A stretch of 34,618 nt of DNA from a virus, in the IMG/VR virus record IMGVR_UViG_3300042485_000754, positions 1-34,618 of that record. One strand, given 5' to 3'. The notes beneath the pieces were generated by a model. It saw nothing but the letters and a program-made list of their open reading frames with translations, had not been told where the DNA came from and ran no database searches. Positions 19,102 to 27,155 of this stretch are shown piece by piece. The first letter of the stretch is position 1. The number at the start of each line of letters is the position of its first letter. Position numbers and translations under genes: made by a program.

Positions 19102-19353
19102 TTATTTTTTAAAAAATATATTATTTAAAAGGTTACGGAATAGAGGAGCAGATACTCCTGCAACGAATGCCACCAAAACGCAATTTAAGACCCATACAGG
19201 TAGGAAGTATAAAGCAATGGCAATATATACGGATAGGCACATATTGCAGTTAAATGGTTTAAAATTGACCTTCCACCTTTCGGGTAGTCTTGCCATATCA
19301 ATAAAGTAGAAAACAAAGAAAAGGGATGCGATAACAATTTTAAGTGATAGCAT
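19102..19353 (-). CDS. Small inner-membrane protein with CxxC
   Basis: 83 residues with two or three hydrophobic segments: ~2-20 (SLKIVIASLFFVFYFIDMA), ~41-56 (YIAIALYFLPVWVLNC) and a third overlapping stretch to ~70 (VLVAFVAGVSAPLF). Between them lies 'KPFNCNMCLSVYIA', a CxxC at the membrane surface. It overlaps the sigma-like gene by 14 nt. The function is unknown; metal binding or superinfection exclusion are possibilities only. Confidence 0.6.
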   Translation of the reverse strand: MLSLKIVIASLFFVFYFIDMARLPERWKVNFKPFNCNMCLSVYIAIALYFLPVWVLNCVLVAFVAGVSAPLFRNLLNNIFFKK

Positions 19354-19855
19354 GGTTTTTGATTTTATATTTTAAAAGTGTTTTAGTTTTTTTAATGGTT
19401 TTCATTAGTGACCTATATGGGATGCCAGTGTCCCGTGATAATGACATTATTTTTTGCCCATTCTCTGAATAAAGTCTAAAGATTTCAAGTTCATACCAAT
19501 GTAAGATTTTTAAAGAATTATTTAGTTTCACAGTTATTTCATCTGTTTGAATGGTATCGCTTACATCAGGTGCATCATATTTTTCATTCCATTCAGTAAA
19601 TACTTTTCTAAACTTATTAAAAAATGTTGACCTATCAGACTTTATCATTGTAAGCATTGTTCGTACCAAGTAGAACTTTAAGAATCCCCCGTTGTGCATT
19701 GACATAAACTTTGCCTCATCCATCTCACAAAGTACCATAAACATCTCTTGCCTTAAATCATCCTGCAACTCTAATGGTTGCATCTTCTTGATGGCATTGT
19801 TTATATCCTTGTCCTTGTATAAACTTTCTATTATATCGTTTTTAGTTAAACACAT
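19340..19855 (-). CDS. Sigma-70-family-like transcription factor
   Basis: 171 residues. Residues ~28-82 resemble sigma region 2: 'LQDDLRQEMFMVLCEMDE' then 'FLKFYLVRTMLTMIKSD'. Residues ~115-165 resemble region 4 with its HTH: 'LHWYELEIFRLYSENGQKI', 'SLSRDTGIPYRSLMKTIKK'. Proteins of this shape are common in Bacteroidota phages near the late-gene start and probably redirect host RNA polymerase. It is the first gene downstream of the 323-nt repeat region and of a candidate TAnnTTTG promoter, so it may drive the late operon or autoregulate. Promoter specificity cannot be read from the sequence. Confidence 0.7.
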   Translation of the reverse strand: MCLTKNDIIESLYKDKDINNAIKKMQPLELQDDLRQEMFMVLCEMDEAKFMSMHNGGFLKFYLVRTMLTMIKSDRSTFFNKFRKVFTEWNEKYDAPDVSDTIQTDEITVKLNNSLKILHWYELEIFRLYSENGQKIMSLSRDTGIPYRSLMKTIKKTKTLLKYKIKNHAIT

Positions 19856-19920: not shown

Positions 19921-19928
19921 CAAATTTA
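19921..19928 (-). promoter_or_regulatory. Candidate Bacteroidota promoter (-7 TAAATTTG) for the sigma-like gene
   Basis: The minus strand reads TAAATTTG, an exact fit to TAnnTTTG, about 66 nt upstream of the sigma-like start codon. I see no convincing -33 TTG at the right distance, so an activator bound to the upstream repeats may be needed. Confidence 0.45.
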
Positions 19929-19942
19929 AACTTTTTTCACAT

Positions 19943-19968
19943 GTGTTGTTTGCTTTAGCGAACAACAC
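19943..19968. repeat. Inverted repeat (GTGTTGTT / AACAACAC)
   Basis: Arms 19943-19950 and 19961-19968 are perfect complements, and inner bases (GCT/AGC) can extend the stem. No U-tract follows on the minus strand, so it is not an obvious terminator. It lies just upstream of the candidate -7 element and could be an operator. Confidence 0.6.
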
Positions 19969-19990
19969 GTATGTATATATTTTATTTATA

Positions 19991-20039
19991 GTTATAACAC
20001 TGTTATAGCAGTGTTATAGCAGTGTTATAACAGTGTTAT
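19991..20039. repeat. Phased GTTAT array 1 (five copies, 11-bp period)
   Basis: GTTAT begins at 19991, 20002, 20013, 20024 and 20035, each 11 bp apart. The repeat unit is close to AGTGTTATAGC, and several units contain parts of the palindrome TGTTATAACA. Confidence 0.9.
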
Positions 20040-20111
20040 TAATACATTGATTGTCATTAATTTATTTATTATAAAATTAATTAATATTGGTATTTTTATT
20101 ATTTTTGTTTT

Positions 20112-20171
20112 GTTATGAGTCTGTTATGGTTTTGTTATAACAGTGTTATGTGTCTGTTATAACAGTGTTAT
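20112..20171. repeat. Phased GTTAT array 2 (six copies, 11-bp period)
   Basis: GTTAT begins at 20112, 20123, 20134, 20145, 20156 and 20167. Array 2 starts 77 bp (7 x 11) after the last copy of array 1, so both share one register. It ends at the stop codon of the primase-helicase gene. Confidence 0.9.
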
Positions 20172-20178
20172 AACAAAA

Positions 20179-21945
20179 CTACTCAATAAACTCATATTGT
20201 CTAGTAAGTGTGTTATATTTATAGGTGATAAAACCTATTTTCCCTAGCCAAGAGTATCTTACTTTTTGCACATATACTGTCACATCGTTTGTTTGAAAAT
20301 CCCTATAAACTGTAATTCCATTATCTGTTTTATTAAAAAAATGAGCTGATCCTGATATTGAATATAGTGTAGGAACCTCATATTTACCTGTTGTTTTATC
20401 TTTCTGGAGTTTAGTAGGATGAGCAATTACTATAATATGTATACCTAGTTTTAAAGCTGTTTTTTTTATTTTAGTAAGGCATTCACTTACATATTGTGTT
20501 TCAGAATATCCATTTGGTATATTGTGTTCAATATAATTCCATGGATCTATTAATAAACCTTTAATTCCTTTTCTTAAAACCAACTCAGATGTTTTATTTA
20601 ATATACCATCTATTGTTATGTCTGTTTCACTTGTGTTTATAAAACTAAAATTACTCTTTAGATGATCAATAACCATCTCAAGTTCAAACTCTGATACTCT
20701 ATTGTTTTGATTAATTCTGTGATCAAATGCGCGTCCAGATAGTTTCTCGATTAGTTTTGTAGCATGGAACACAGGTGGAGTATTTTCAAATGAACATATT
20801 GCCCATTTCCATCCATGATTTATTGAAGTTCTACATATTATGTAGTCTGTGAATTCACTTTTACCTGAACCTGGAATACCTGTTATAACAGTTATTTGGC
20901 CATCCATTAGTCTAACATGATCATCAAAACCTTGAATACCTACTTGAACTCCTTTAGGATATCCATTATTGTAGTAATCCCATATATCAATTTCTATTTC
21001 ATCATTTGATACTATGCCTTCGATAGGAAATTGCTTAGCATAAAATACAAGTTTTTTTACTTCATCCTTTCCATATTTATTTAGAACATCATTTGCGTCT
21101 TTACAGTCATTCGGAAATTCAACTTGATAGCATCTTTCTTTACCAAGTCTTCTAGATAGTTCTTCTTTTAGTTTTTTACCTACATCATCATTGTCTGTTG
21201 CAATTATGATTTTCTTTTTATCTATAAAATACTCGTAGCAATTATCAAGGTATTTTAATTGCATCTTACCATTTGGTGTTGTTCCATTTGGTACAGATAT
21301 ACAATTATAAATACCTGATTCATACATACTTAGACAGTCTATTTCACCTTCTACTATAATTACTTCATCTGTACCTTTAATTGAGTCTATGTTGTAAAAT
21401 ATCAATTCGGCGTCTTTTGCCAGTTTAAAGTCTTTGCCCGGTCCTCTAAACTTTATGTTTACTAGTTCATCATCTTTAAAATAGTTAAAACATACTACAG
21501 GTACCTCAGCTTTTGATTTAGGCATCCACTCGGTCGCTTGTGTGATCTTAAATCTTAGCAGAGTATTGTTTGATATTAATCTATTTTCAAACCAATTTAT
21601 GTATCTTGGATTAATCTTCTCAAGTCTTTTAACTGGCTTGACGTATTCTTTAGTATAAGTATCTAACTCGAAGTTGTAGTGTCTAGCAACTATTTCAACT
21701 GATTCAGCAAATGTACAGTTTTCTATTTCATATACAAATGAGAATACATCTCCTGATTTACCACAACCAAAACATTTGTAAAAGTTATTTGATGTAGGTA
21801 TTTTAAATGATGGTGTTTTCTCATTATGAAATGGACAACATGCTACATAGTCTGATCCAGATCTTTTTGTTTTAACATATTTATCTACAATATCAGTTAG
21901 TTTACATATTTCTTTTAGTTTTATAATTGATTCATGGCTGATCAT
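20179..21945 (-). CDS. Bifunctional DNA primase-helicase
   Basis: 588 residues in three parts. (1) A CHC2-type zinc finger: C37, H40, C58, C61 in 'CCPFHNEKTPSF' and 'FYKCFGCGKSGD'. (2) A TOPRIM core with E199 (IIVEGEID) and the DxD-like D251-N-D253 (IATDNDD). (3) A RecA-like helicase with Walker A GIPGSGKS (356-363), Walker B-like LLIDPWN (464-470), and IIVIAHPTK (504-512) as the H3-like motif. This is the T7 gp4/Twinkle arrangement, which primes and unwinds at the fork. The start overlaps the DUF4373 gene by 4 bases. It ends exactly where the 11-bp repeats begin. Confidence 0.93.
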   Translation of the reverse strand: MISHESIIKLKEICKLTDIVDKYVKTKRSGSDYVACCPFHNEKTPSFKIPTSNNFYKCFGCGKSGDVFSFVYEIENCTFAESVEIVARHYNFELDTYTKEYVKPVKRLEKINPRYINWFENRLISNNTLLRFKITQATEWMPKSKAEVPVVCFNYFKDDELVNIKFRGPGKDFKLAKDAELIFYNIDSIKGTDEVIIVEGEIDCLSMYESGIYNCISVPNGTTPNGKMQLKYLDNCYEYFIDKKKIIIATDNDDVGKKLKEELSRRLGKERCYQVEFPNDCKDANDVLNKYGKDEVKKLVFYAKQFPIEGIVSNDEIEIDIWDYYNNGYPKGVQVGIQGFDDHVRLMDGQITVITGIPGSGKSEFTDYIICRTSINHGWKWAICSFENTPPVFHATKLIEKLSGRAFDHRINQNNRVSEFELEMVIDHLKSNFSFINTSETDITIDGILNKTSELVLRKGIKGLLIDPWNYIEHNIPNGYSETQYVSECLTKIKKTALKLGIHIIVIAHPTKLQKDKTTGKYEVPTLYSISGSAHFFNKTDNGITVYRDFQTNDVTVYVQKVRYSWLGKIGFITYKYNTLTRQYEFIE

Positions 21946-22325
21946 AAAATCATTTTATTTTGTTTGTTAGTTTTTTCCCATCTCTTTTTCATTCCTTCTT
22001 TTCCTGATATTGATTTTCTTTCTTTAAGAAGCTTGTACTGTTCCATACTTCTTACCAGTCTTTCGGAATAGAAGAGTTCATCCTCGGTTAAAAACAAATC
22101 AAAATCGTTAATGATTGATTTTATGATCTTTTGATCAATGTTAAATGAGAAGGCAATATCATCAATACAGTTTATTGATAGTTTATATTCAGGTGCTTCT
22201 CTAAGCATTTCAATCAAACACCAGTATAAACCATAACCTTCAAAACCAAGGTTTCTTCTAAGCTTTAATATCTTAACGTCGTTTCTAGCATTGCTATCGT
22301 GTGAAAAGTAAAATGACTCTTTCAT
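21942..22325 (-). CDS. DUF4373 (Lin1244/Lin1753-like) replication protein
   Basis: 127 residues. 'FYFSHDSNARNDVKILKLRR' and 'GFEGYGLYWCLIEMLREAPE' (5-47) are the signature of the DUF4373 N-terminal domain, a winged-helix found in phage and plasmid replication proteins. The C-terminus 'KSISGKEGMKKRWEK' is typical of the linker leading to DnaD-like parts, which are absent here, so the protein is a short version. It precedes the primase-helicase with a 4-base overlap and may load it or bind the origin. It is preceded by a structured 110-nt leader. Confidence 0.75.
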   Translation of the reverse strand: MKESFYFSHDSNARNDVKILKLRRNLGFEGYGLYWCLIEMLREAPEYKLSINCIDDIAFSFNIDQKIIKSIINDFDLFLTEDELFYSERLVRSMEQYKLLKERKSISGKEGMKKRWEKTNKQNKMIL

Positions 22326-22435: not shown

Positions 22436-22903
22436 TTACAAATTATCATAGAGATAAAAAAACTGTTCTGCATCTTTTATAAATTCATAAATGCCTCCAG
22501 CTTTTCTTTCTCTTACTTGTTCTTTTAATTGATCTTCTCTAGGTCTATCTAAACCAACTTTTATTTCAATCATAACAGATCTTCCTTTTATTGTTGCTGA
22601 AATATCTGCTGTACCTCTTCTAGTAGATGATGGAATCCATTTTTTTACTCCTATTTTTGCTCCTGATGCTTGTTTTTCAACTCCATCAATTAATCTACCA
22701 GATACATTAATTCTTGTTGCTCTATGTCCAGACCATGACAAAAAGTTACAGATAAAAGTAGTGAGACCATTTGATGTATCTACTTTAGGAAGTTTAGGAT
22801 CTAGATAAAATCCATCTTTATATGCATTAGGATATGATTCCTTAAACCAACTTTCATGAGCTTTGCAATATCTATCTTTCGTGTAACTTAAAGTGTTTTT
22901 CAT
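22436..22903 (-). CDS. VRR-NUC domain nuclease
   Basis: 155 residues from the ATG at 22903 (MKNTLSYTKDRYCKAHESWF). The C-terminal half matches the VRR-NUC fold: 'RRGTADISATIKGRSVMIEIK' spans the catalytic Asp100, Glu113 and Lys115, followed by 'RPREDQLKEQ' with Gln125 and 'GIYEFIKDAEQFFYLY'. Phage VRR-NUC proteins are thought to act as Holliday-junction or flap nucleases in replication and recombination. The start overlaps the end of the TS-family gene by 32 nt. It ends just before the structured leader. Confidence 0.8.
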   Translation of the reverse strand: MKNTLSYTKDRYCKAHESWFKESYPNAYKDGFYLDPKLPKVDTSNGLTTFICNFLSWSGHRATRINVSGRLIDGVEKQASGAKIGVKKWIPSSTRRGTADISATIKGRSVMIEIKVGLDRPREDQLKEQVRERKAGGIYEFIKDAEQFFYLYDNL

Positions 22904-23522
22904 ATATGTGTAGGTTTTGAGCAAAATGATAATACCAACCAACTTCTTTCTTTAGGCGAAGTGCAACCATCTGTTGTAACTTTGAAAAACAATATTGATC
23001 ATTACAAAATCCAAATACTAGATCATTACTTCTCATTGTTACAGTCATGCATAGTTTATCATCTTGTATACAAAACACAATAGATAATGTACATGGTGTA
23101 TCATATTTGTATTGATCATGTTCTTTACCATCATATATTGTAAGTACTGCTCTTCTAGAATTGTTGTTTCTTTCTAATTCTGATATGACATAATCAAGTT
23201 GATTGTTCCTGCTCCATTGCCAACCATAGTTACTGTTTACAATGTTATCACCATTATGCATGGTGTCCCAGATCTTAGCTTTCTGTTTTATGTTTTCAAC
23301 TGATCTATTTTTTGACAGGTACCAGTTAAATTCATACTCAGCATATTGCTTATTAAATTTTCTCCAAGATGTTTTGATGTCATTGTCTACTGGGTTAGAT
23401 ATTTCAAACCCAATATTGTGTAGCATTTTTGTATTACCTACTTCTAAACCTAAATGATTTATTAAAAAGTAGTAATATTCAAATGCCTTTTCTGCATTAT
23501 GAAATTTGTTCAATGTGTACAT
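22872..23522 (-). CDS. Thymidylate synthase family enzyme, possible dCMP hydroxymethylase
   Basis: 216 residues. The TS core is clear: 'YGWQWSRNNQLDYVI' (99-113), 'NSRRAVLTIYDGKEH' (121-135; R123/R124 phosphate binding), 'DTPCTLSIVF' with catalytic C144, 'MTVTMRSNDLVFGFCNDQYCF' cut at 159-179, and 'NLHIYEKH' (203-210). At the position of the TS Asn that recognises uracil (E. coli N177) this protein has D175 (by alignment with R164-S165-D167). That substitution is the hallmark of T4-type dCMP hydroxymethylase, so 5-hydroxymethyl-dCMP is a possible product. It is shorter than bacterial TS (~264). Neighbours are dCMP deaminase and MazG. TS activity remains the alternative. Confidence 0.75.
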   Translation of the reverse strand: MYTLNKFHNAEKAFEYYYFLINHLGLEVGNTKMLHNIGFEISNPVDNDIKTSWRKFNKQYAEYEFNWYLSKNRSVENIKQKAKIWDTMHNGDNIVNSNYGWQWSRNNQLDYVISELERNNNSRRAVLTIYDGKEHDQYKYDTPCTLSIVFCIQDDKLCMTVTMRSNDLVFGFCNDQYCFSKLQQMVALRLKKEVGWYYHFAQNLHIYEKHFKLHER

Positions 23523-23904
23523 TTGTTTGTTTTAGAAGTTCAATACCAGAAGTATCTCGATACTGTTCAATATAATATACTTCTTTTATTCCAGATTGAA
23601 TGATAAGTTTTGCACAGTCAAAGCATGGTGAAAGAGTTAGATACATTTGTGAATTATTTGAACTGTAGAAACTTTTAGCACACTTTGTAATAGCGTTAGA
23701 TTCAGCGTGTAAAACTTCTCTTTTTGTTTGTCCATTGATTTCACAAATATTTTCAAACCCAGAAGGGGTGCCATTATAACCAAAAGAGATAATATTATCT
23801 TCCTTGACTATAATAGCACCAACCTTAGATCTTTCACAATAAGAAGCTTTACTAACTTCTTTTGCTATTGATAAGTAAAATTTAATCTTTGACAAATGTT
23901 CCAT
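23497..23904 (-). CDS. Deoxycytidylate (dCMP) deaminase
   Basis: 135 residues. The zinc-dependent deaminase motif is HAE at 66-68 and PCFDC at 93-97 (C94 and C97), with 'GYNGTPSGFENI' (42-53) typical of the dCMP deaminase substrate loop. It makes dUMP from dCMP. Together with the TS-family gene (26-nt overlap) and MazG it forms a nucleotide-pool block. An active deaminase would compete with a dCMP hydroxymethylase for substrate. Confidence 0.85.
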   Translation of the reverse strand: MEHLSKIKFYLSIAKEVSKASYCERSKVGAIIVKEDNIISFGYNGTPSGFENICEINGQTKREVLHAESNAITKCAKSFYSSNNSQMYLTLSPCFDCAKLIIQSGIKEVYYIEQYRDTSGIELLKQTNVHIEQIS

Positions 23905-26123: not shown

Positions 26124-26989
26124 AAATCAAGTATTTTATTAAAACTAGATGCTTTTACTTTACTAAAATCAATTACGTCTTGTGATGCTTTAATGCTAAC
26201 TGGAAGCGACTTCCACATTTCTGTTAGTTGTTCTTTAGACTTGCAATCGTCTAACATTGCAATGTAATCAATTTCTTTAGGTTTTTCAGGAATAACGCCT
26301 TTATCACACCATTCTTTTATCATTATACCAGTATTTTCTGTAATCATAAATGGTTCCTTACCTTCAAATATTTCAGTACGATCTTTTGATGCTACCGTTA
26401 AATGAGTGTCTCTGTCTATACTAAGTGATACTGTTAACTCATATTCCCAACCATCTCTTTGTATATCTTTCATACCAAGTTTTTTAACTCTCTTGTCATC
26501 ACCCATTACTGTTTCCATTTTAGATCTAGTACATGTAATAACATGAGCATCACATTGTAGTACTTTTTGAACAAAAGCATCATGCCTAGGAGTTGTTTCA
26601 TGCCATGCAGACCATGTGTTTCCACGGTATCTTGCATGAGCTAATTTCTCGTTAATTTCTAGACAACCTCCAGGACCTGACCATTCGTGAGAAGATGAGT
26701 CTATTATTATAGCTTCAATTCCAGCAGATACACACGCGTCAATGGATTCAATGTATCTTTCAGGTGAAAATGGAGGTGTAAGATCTATGACATTAAAATC
26801 ACCTAAATGTTCATACAGTGATGCAGAACCATTTTCTGTATCTATTACAGCAATTTTGTCCCATGATCCTACTAATCCTTTTGCTAACAGTAGTGCTCCA
26901 TAGGTTTTACCTGCTCCAGATGGTGCTGATAGGTTTAATCTTAGTTTTACTTTTTTTCTAGTTGCTTTCTTTAGTTGTAAGTTGTTCAT
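26120..26989 (-). CDS. Sak4-like RecA-fold ATPase (AAA_24)
   Basis: 289 residues. Walker A is APSGAGKT (22-29), followed by 'KIAVIDTENGSASLYE' (45-60) and Walker B-like 'EAIIIDSSSHEW' (92-103). The 'WHETTPRHDAFVQKVLQ' and 'VITCTRSKMETVM' segments are the usual later motifs of the phage Sak4/AAA_24 group. These proteins stimulate single-strand annealing with a phage SSB; the SSB-like gene two genes downstream fits this pairing. The C-terminal ~60 residues are extra helix. It is preceded by the RHH-like regulator with a 32-nt overlap. Confidence 0.8.
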   Translation of the reverse strand: MNNLQLKKATRKKVKLRLNLSAPSGAGKTYGALLLAKGLVGSWDKIAVIDTENGSASLYEHLGDFNVIDLTPPFSPERYIESIDACVSAGIEAIIIDSSSHEWSGPGGCLEINEKLAHARYRGNTWSAWHETTPRHDAFVQKVLQCDAHVITCTRSKMETVMGDDKRVKKLGMKDIQRDGWEYELTVSLSIDRDTHLTVASKDRTEIFEGKEPFMITENTGIMIKEWCDKGVIPEKPKEIDYIAMLDDCKSKEQLTEMWKSLPVSIKASQDVIDFSKVKASSFNKILDL

Positions 26990-27155
26990 TTGTCACTTTT
27001 TTTAATTTAGATAATATTACTTCTTTTATCGCCGCGGTTAAACTACCATACTTTTTAAGTATAGCTTTTTTATCCTTGTCATTAATGTAAGCACTTACCA
27101 TTTTGACCTTTTGATCATCTGGTATTTTTTTTCTACCTGGTTTTTGTTTCTCCAT
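26958..27155 (-). CDS. Small ribbon-helix-helix-like regulator, first gene of the early operon
   Basis: 65 residues with basic N-terminus 'EKQKPGRKKIPDDQKVKMVS' followed by a strand (VKMVSAYI), a helix (NDKDKKAILKKYG) and a second helix (SLTAAIKEVILSKLKK). This resembles a ribbon-helix-helix (CopG/Arc-type) DNA-binding unit; 'KKYGSLTAAIK' is a recurring string in small phage regulators. It is the first gene after the divergent promoter region and could repress its own promoter. The family call is by pattern. Confidence 0.55.
   Translation of the reverse strand: MEKQKPGRKKIPDDQKVKMVSAYINDKDKKAILKKYGSLTAAIKEVILSKLKKVTNEQLTTKESN

Follow-up and report, generated by a model that had tools for sequence, protein, structure and literature searches.

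The replication origins of phages lambda and SPP1 are each understood to depend on an initiator, lambda O or SPP1 gp38, that covers the iterons, opens an AT-rich element and brings in the helicase (PMC7466680, PMC6316719). In the lambda-type origin the iterons and the AT-rich tract are found in the middle of gene O (PMC7466680). SPP1 gp38 binds repeats beside an AT-rich unwinding element, and of the two SPP1 origins oriL is located inside the initiator gene and oriR elsewhere (PMC6316719). The origins of most phages that are known only from metagenomes are unmapped, and we found no papers on DUF4373 or Lin1244 origins or their iterons among open-licence papers.

Here we describe two arrays of short repeats in a 34,618-base contig from an uncultivated virus, the whole of which was analysed and is referred to as the window. 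The arrays, which lie 3' of the primase gene, are very probably a lambda/SPP1-like phage replication origin that is bound by a DUF4373 protein. The locus resembles the lambda origin in having direct repeats, the proposed binding sites of the initiator, beside an AT-rich tract, and in the distant relatives of the window the module is located inside the initiator gene. It differs from lambda in its units, which are 10–11 bp long and arranged head to tail, in its initiator (DUF4373 instead of O), in the location of the origin outside the initiator gene, and in its helicase, which is fused to a primase. Lambda iterons are longer than 10–11 bp. The arrangement of initiator, repeats and AT-rich element proposed for the window is also that of SPP1; however, SPP1 uses gp38, the helicase loader gp39 and the DnaB-type gp40, whereas the window encodes a DUF4373 protein and a primase-helicase and holds only one such repeat cluster. 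Initiators of the same family (Lin1244/DUF4373, PF14297) are encoded by Enterococcus phage EF62phi, Lactobacillus phage LBR48 and Porphyromonas phage005a, and EF62phi carries 11-bp-spaced ATAGCAAA repeats inside its initiator gene. Unlike in the window, a DnaC-like loader lies beside the initiator in EF62phi and Porphyromonas phage005a, and their initiators are longer.

Two iteron arrays and their surroundings

The genes near the arrays are all on the minus strand, in the order initiator, primase-helicase, arrays and an ORF that matched no family. The initiator gene (21942–22325, minus strand) encodes a DUF4373/Lin1244_N replication initiator of 127 amino acids with a predicted winged helix (PF14297, phrog_2562). 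It scores 47.9 bits against PF14297, above the curated Pfam cutoff of 25, and the PHROG is annotated as 'replication initiation protein'. The AlphaFold2 model of the protein has a pLDDT of 86 and its structural matches are only to generic winged helices (best Z 7.2); a sequence search of solved structures found no credible relative. Residues 107–116, SGKEGMKKRW (codons at 21978–22007, minus strand), assign it to motif class M and fall in the long C-terminal helix of the model. The primase-helicase gene (20179–21945, minus strand), with CHC2 zinc finger, Toprim and DnaB_C domains, separates the initiator gene directly upstream of it from the iterons, and the replication module thus contains a cognate initiator gene. 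The DUF4373 protein, already listed among possible binders in an earlier note on this DNA, is the best candidate for the iteron-binding protein as judged from sequence.

Initiators often end in hydrophobic residues (-MIL, -MVL, -VVL, -MVF), even where no gene overlaps the stop codon; such tails are found in the window (21942–21956) and in L029, L031, L049, L059 and L062, and possibly contact the primase-helicase. Genes for thymidylate synthase (PF00303) and dCMP deaminase (PF00383), at 22872–23904, adjoin the replication genes, which suggests nucleotide metabolism for phage DNA synthesis.

GTTAT occurs eleven times between 19991 and 20171, at 19991, 20002, 20013, 20024 and 20035 in the first array and at 20112, 20123, 20134, 20145, 20156 and 20167 in the second. 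The steps inside each array are 11 bp, the pattern is far above chance, and every position listed in the earlier note proved exact. The best lag-11 self-match of the whole window (43 of 55) sits at the arrays; the highest value among 500 Markov genomes simulated with the local composition was 39. Three phased GTTATs were found nowhere else in the 34.6-kb record. The window therefore has multiple short direct repeats at helical spacing, as in iteron-type phage origins. The array adjoining the AT-rich tract (19991–20045, minus strand) comprises five 11-bp units, at 136, 147, 158, 169 and 180 after the primase stop, and is present in all close relatives. The primase-proximal array (20112–20175, minus strand) comprises six 11-bp units, including three full TGTTATAACA palindromes. 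Because five copies of ATAAC in the 19991–20171 stretch share one phase, several units are complete palindromes of this kind, as the earlier note had also observed.

Two candidate unwinding elements adjoin the arrays, providing the easily melted AT-rich element expected of an origin. By nearest-neighbour energies, the inter-array spacer (20056–20105) has the lowest stability of any 50-bp stretch in the window. The AT-rich tract beside the conserved array (19970–19990, ATAAATAAAATATATAC on the minus strand) occupies the position held by a AAAGGAAAGGAAA tract in relatives. After this tract, structure prediction and alignment reveal a hairpin, GTGTTGTTCGC-TAAA-GCAAACAACAC (19943–19968, minus strand). 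It is predicted in 12 of 12 window-type loci tested (z −3.3 to −4.9), and in the alignment of window-type relatives its structure is kept while the stem sequences differ; it was not detected in L018, L021 and L217–L224. No T run follows the hairpin on either strand, and an intrinsic terminator was rejected. A terminator call at 19991–20031 from a scan is the palindromic array itself. Hairpins that appeared conserved by eye within initiator genes (GCCTTCGGC, CCCTTCGGG) were not significant against synonymous shuffles (p = 0.13) and were discarded. GC skew, suggested earlier as an origin test, simply declines without a switch at the array, and is uninformative because nearly all genes lie on one strand.

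The distance between the last copy of one array and the first of the other is 77 bp (7 × 11), a multiple that the earlier note pointed out and that holds in the window and its near-identical relatives, but is shifted by 1 bp in L010, L011 and L014. The two arrays start 132 bp apart in the window, L008, L009 and L020 but 133 bp apart in L010, L011 and L014; an exact common register is therefore not conserved, and the single helical register that had been claimed for both arrays is not supported. Eleven bp differs from one turn of B-DNA: with 10.5 bp to the turn, 132 bp makes about 12.6 turns, and the arrays therefore do not lie on one face of relaxed DNA, contrary to the earlier suggestion. One register for both arrays, at 11 bp per step, is physically unlikely. 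The steps in L023 are 11, 11, 10, 11, 11 and 10 bp. The primase-proximal array is missing in L012 and L013, which form one lineage, while the AT-tract-side array is always present.

The module in related phages

We compared 79 viral loci with a related primase-helicase, most of them metagenomic fragments. In the nearest relatives the coding strand 3' of the primase-helicase gene carries iterons at 10–11-bp steps, the AT-rich tract TATAAATAAAATATATACA and, in most, the hairpin. The array matching the AT-tract-side one is kept in L008–L014, L020 and L036. Different genes follow the same module in L023–L028 and L215–L224. In L036 (after 1138) and L216 (after 2815) a few hundred bases separate the primase gene from the origin; this insert is apparently coding on the other strand and the AT-proximal array is kept.

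Many distant relatives encode a longer DUF4373 protein with iterons inside its gene and a purine tract, e.g. AAAGGAAAGGAAA, directly after them. The sequences of these in-gene iterons vary, and include TGCGAACGCAT, GGCTTAAGCC, ATCGC and GTTGAAC. In L047, L048, L244, L266 and L370 the in-gene iterons have the ATAAC core of the window, and an AAAGG/AAAGT tract comes after them. Iterons lie within the initiator coding sequence in distant relatives such as L029, L047 and L266 but not in the window, and no phased repeats were found in the window initiator gene or in window-type short initiators.

The AAAGG/AAAGT purine tract has a 5-bp period and lies just 3' of the iterons in L028, L029, L047, L215, L244, L266 and many others. 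When located in genes it encodes a Lys/Glu-rich linker, and it may be an unwinding element; TATAAATAAAATATATACA stands in its place in the window clade. Two arrays were also seen in some in-gene origins (L029, at ORF bp ~174–240 and 378–420, L033, L054 and L070), one in the part coding for the winged helix and one in the part coding for the linker, echoing the two arrays of the window. The Vibrio phages L120 and L123 carry, at ~320–364 of the DUF4373 ORF, GTCATGAC-like palindromes about 21 bp, or two helical turns, apart, hinting at the same origin type in phages of Proteobacteria.

Searching with a four-unit GTTAT pattern alone did not serve as an origin finder, as the 24 other contigs it returned hold unrelated repeats without DUF4373. 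Among named phages, those of Cellulophaga, Flavobacterium, Porphyromonas and Tenacibaculum encode distant relatives of the primase-helicase or the initiator, which suggests a Bacteroidota host; the initiator family also occurs in Enterococcus, Lactobacillus and Vibrio phages. A search of host genomes with the primase as query gave only weak DnaG-like matches and no prophage relatives.

The spacing was examined in pooled sets. Distances between repeated 6-mers at ORF positions 282–480 of 41 nonredundant initiator genes, compared with synonymous-codon shuffles, peak at 10, 11 and 22 (z 5.6, 8.2 and 8.3), and those in 18 nonredundant intergenic regions, compared with Markov sequences, peak at 10, 11, 22 and 33 (z 5.0, 9.7, 6.7 and 6.5). 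No peak at 10, 11, 21 or 22 was seen in either of two controls, the part of the ORF past position 480 and the short initiators of the window clade. A weaker peak in the first 282 bp of the initiator ORFs fits the second array located there in some phages, e.g. L029. Repeats in the protein do not account for the in-gene spacing, since 11 is not divisible by 3. Single-locus significance was weak for several in-gene arrays because their spacing mixes 10 and 11 bp, and the pooled test resolved this. The earlier note had made the spacing in relatives the test of its reading, and a spacing of 10–11 bp is indeed kept, not random.

Covariation of iteron core and initiator motif

Eighty-four nonredundant initiators were classed solely by the motif at the end of their DNA-binding region and their iteron regions were compared; about 20 initiators that matched no class were omitted. 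With motif classes and diagnostic cores both picked after looking at the data, ATAAC was found in 21 of the 22 class M (GM) loci, ATCGC in all five class N (GN) loci, AAGC in 12/12 class GG loci, TCAAC in seven of eight loci of class SA without W, and GCRAA-type cores in 22 of 33 loci of class AR..SA..RW (ARW). ATAAC was absent from three other classes (ARW 0/33, GG 0/12, SA 0/8). A comparison of iteron 5-mers, which is independent of the diagnostic cores but uses the motif classes, gave a cosine of 0.318 for same-class pairs versus 0.042 for different-class pairs. When the first 95 residues were less than 35% identical the values were 0.256 and 0.039, and none of 500 label permutations reached the observed similarity.

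On a tree built from the first 97 residues, motif class must have changed at least 21 times, and class M needs at least four changes even when only well-supported branches are counted. Both motif and iterons differ within the sister pairs L048 (M, ATAAC) and L364 (SA, GTTGAAC), and L404 (ARW) and L408 (SA). Inside genes the motif adjoins the iterons, and joint recombination could therefore yield part of the covariation. The natural pair L018 (GM, GTTATAACC iterons) and L021 (GA, GGCTTAAGCC iterons), a single pair, is free of this adjacency: the initiators are 73% identical and the iterons are intergenic, 1.8 kb from the initiator.

These data suggest that a short, swappable patch of the initiator reads the repeat sequence. 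We consider it reasonably likely that the DUF4373 patch AG[KR]x-G-X-xxRW acts as a repeat code (GM for ATAAC, GN for ATCGC, GG for AAGC, SA without W for TCAAC, AR..SA..RW for GCRAA), that it was swapped together with the iterons many times, changing replication specificity, and that in one lineage the whole origin is detached from the initiator gene.

Proposed origin and alternative explanations

What the sequences show directly is that the arrays exist, are ordered, spaced and conserved as described, and covary with the initiator; the steps of binding, melting and loading, and what the hairpin does, we infer. The DUF4373 initiator, whose gene directly precedes that of the primase-helicase, would bind the 11-bp units side by side, making contact through its winged-helix domain and the helix carrying SGKEGMKKRW. 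The resulting nucleoprotein complex would melt an AT-rich element, either the inter-array spacer or the tract beside the conserved array, where the primase-helicase fusion would be loaded and replication would start; the hairpin past the AT tract may aid priming or loading. The putative origin lies inside the initiator gene in most distant relatives, and the window lineage has it beyond the 3' end of the primase gene, at a distance of 1.8 kb from the initiator. SPP1, with one origin inside the initiator gene and one elsewhere, is a precedent for both positions seen among DUF4373 phages. The interpretation in the earlier note is therefore partly supported overall, and its proposal of an iteron origin with cooperative binding by one protein is strongly supported at the level of sequence.

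That note also offered an operator for the promoter of a 'sigma-like' gene about 60 bp away, and the arrays could be an operator or activator array for that gene and the downstream operon, to which the DUF4373 protein or a different regulator of the phage would bind. The arrays do lie 5' of this ORF (19340–19855, minus strand), for which no family match was found, and a possible Bacteroidetes −7 promoter element, TAAATTTG (19921–19928, minus strand), is located about 63 bp from them, with a similar TAnnTTTG in the corresponding position of L010, L011 and L012. However, TAnnTTTG matches in the window are no commoner than chance, the module precedes different genes in L023–L028 and L215–L224, and the arrays of distant relatives sit inside the initiator gene, so that we regard this explanation as improbable; the arrays may nevertheless have a secondary regulatory role beside that of an origin.

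Centromere proteins of the ParB/RHH type also make use of short phased repeats, and a small ORF (26958–27155) may be the RHH-like one of the earlier note. It has no family match and lies about 7 kb away, the terminase gene is about 5 kb away, and the arrays keep company with the primase or initiator gene, lie next to a tract prone to melting and have a core that follows the initiator motif; a partition or packaging site that is not an origin is thus rather less probable still. Slippage could in principle have left a functionless simple tandem repeat, as a scan for four phased TGTTAT units hit 24 viral contigs that are unrelated, in many cases at plain tandem repeats. Here the units are imperfect, yet core and phase are kept, the phasing holds where sequences have diverged and, within coding DNA, exceeds that of synonymous shuffles, and the core tracks the initiator motif, which makes this the least credible explanation, with hardly any weight.

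A replication origin bound by the DUF4373 protein would mean that a single type of origin occurs both within the initiator gene and away from it. If the link between initiator and iterons holds, the origin of many DUF4373 phages would be readable from sequence and its repeat predictable from a few initiator residues, and these phages would offer a clean system for the change of origin specificity, with natural protein/iteron pairs to test.
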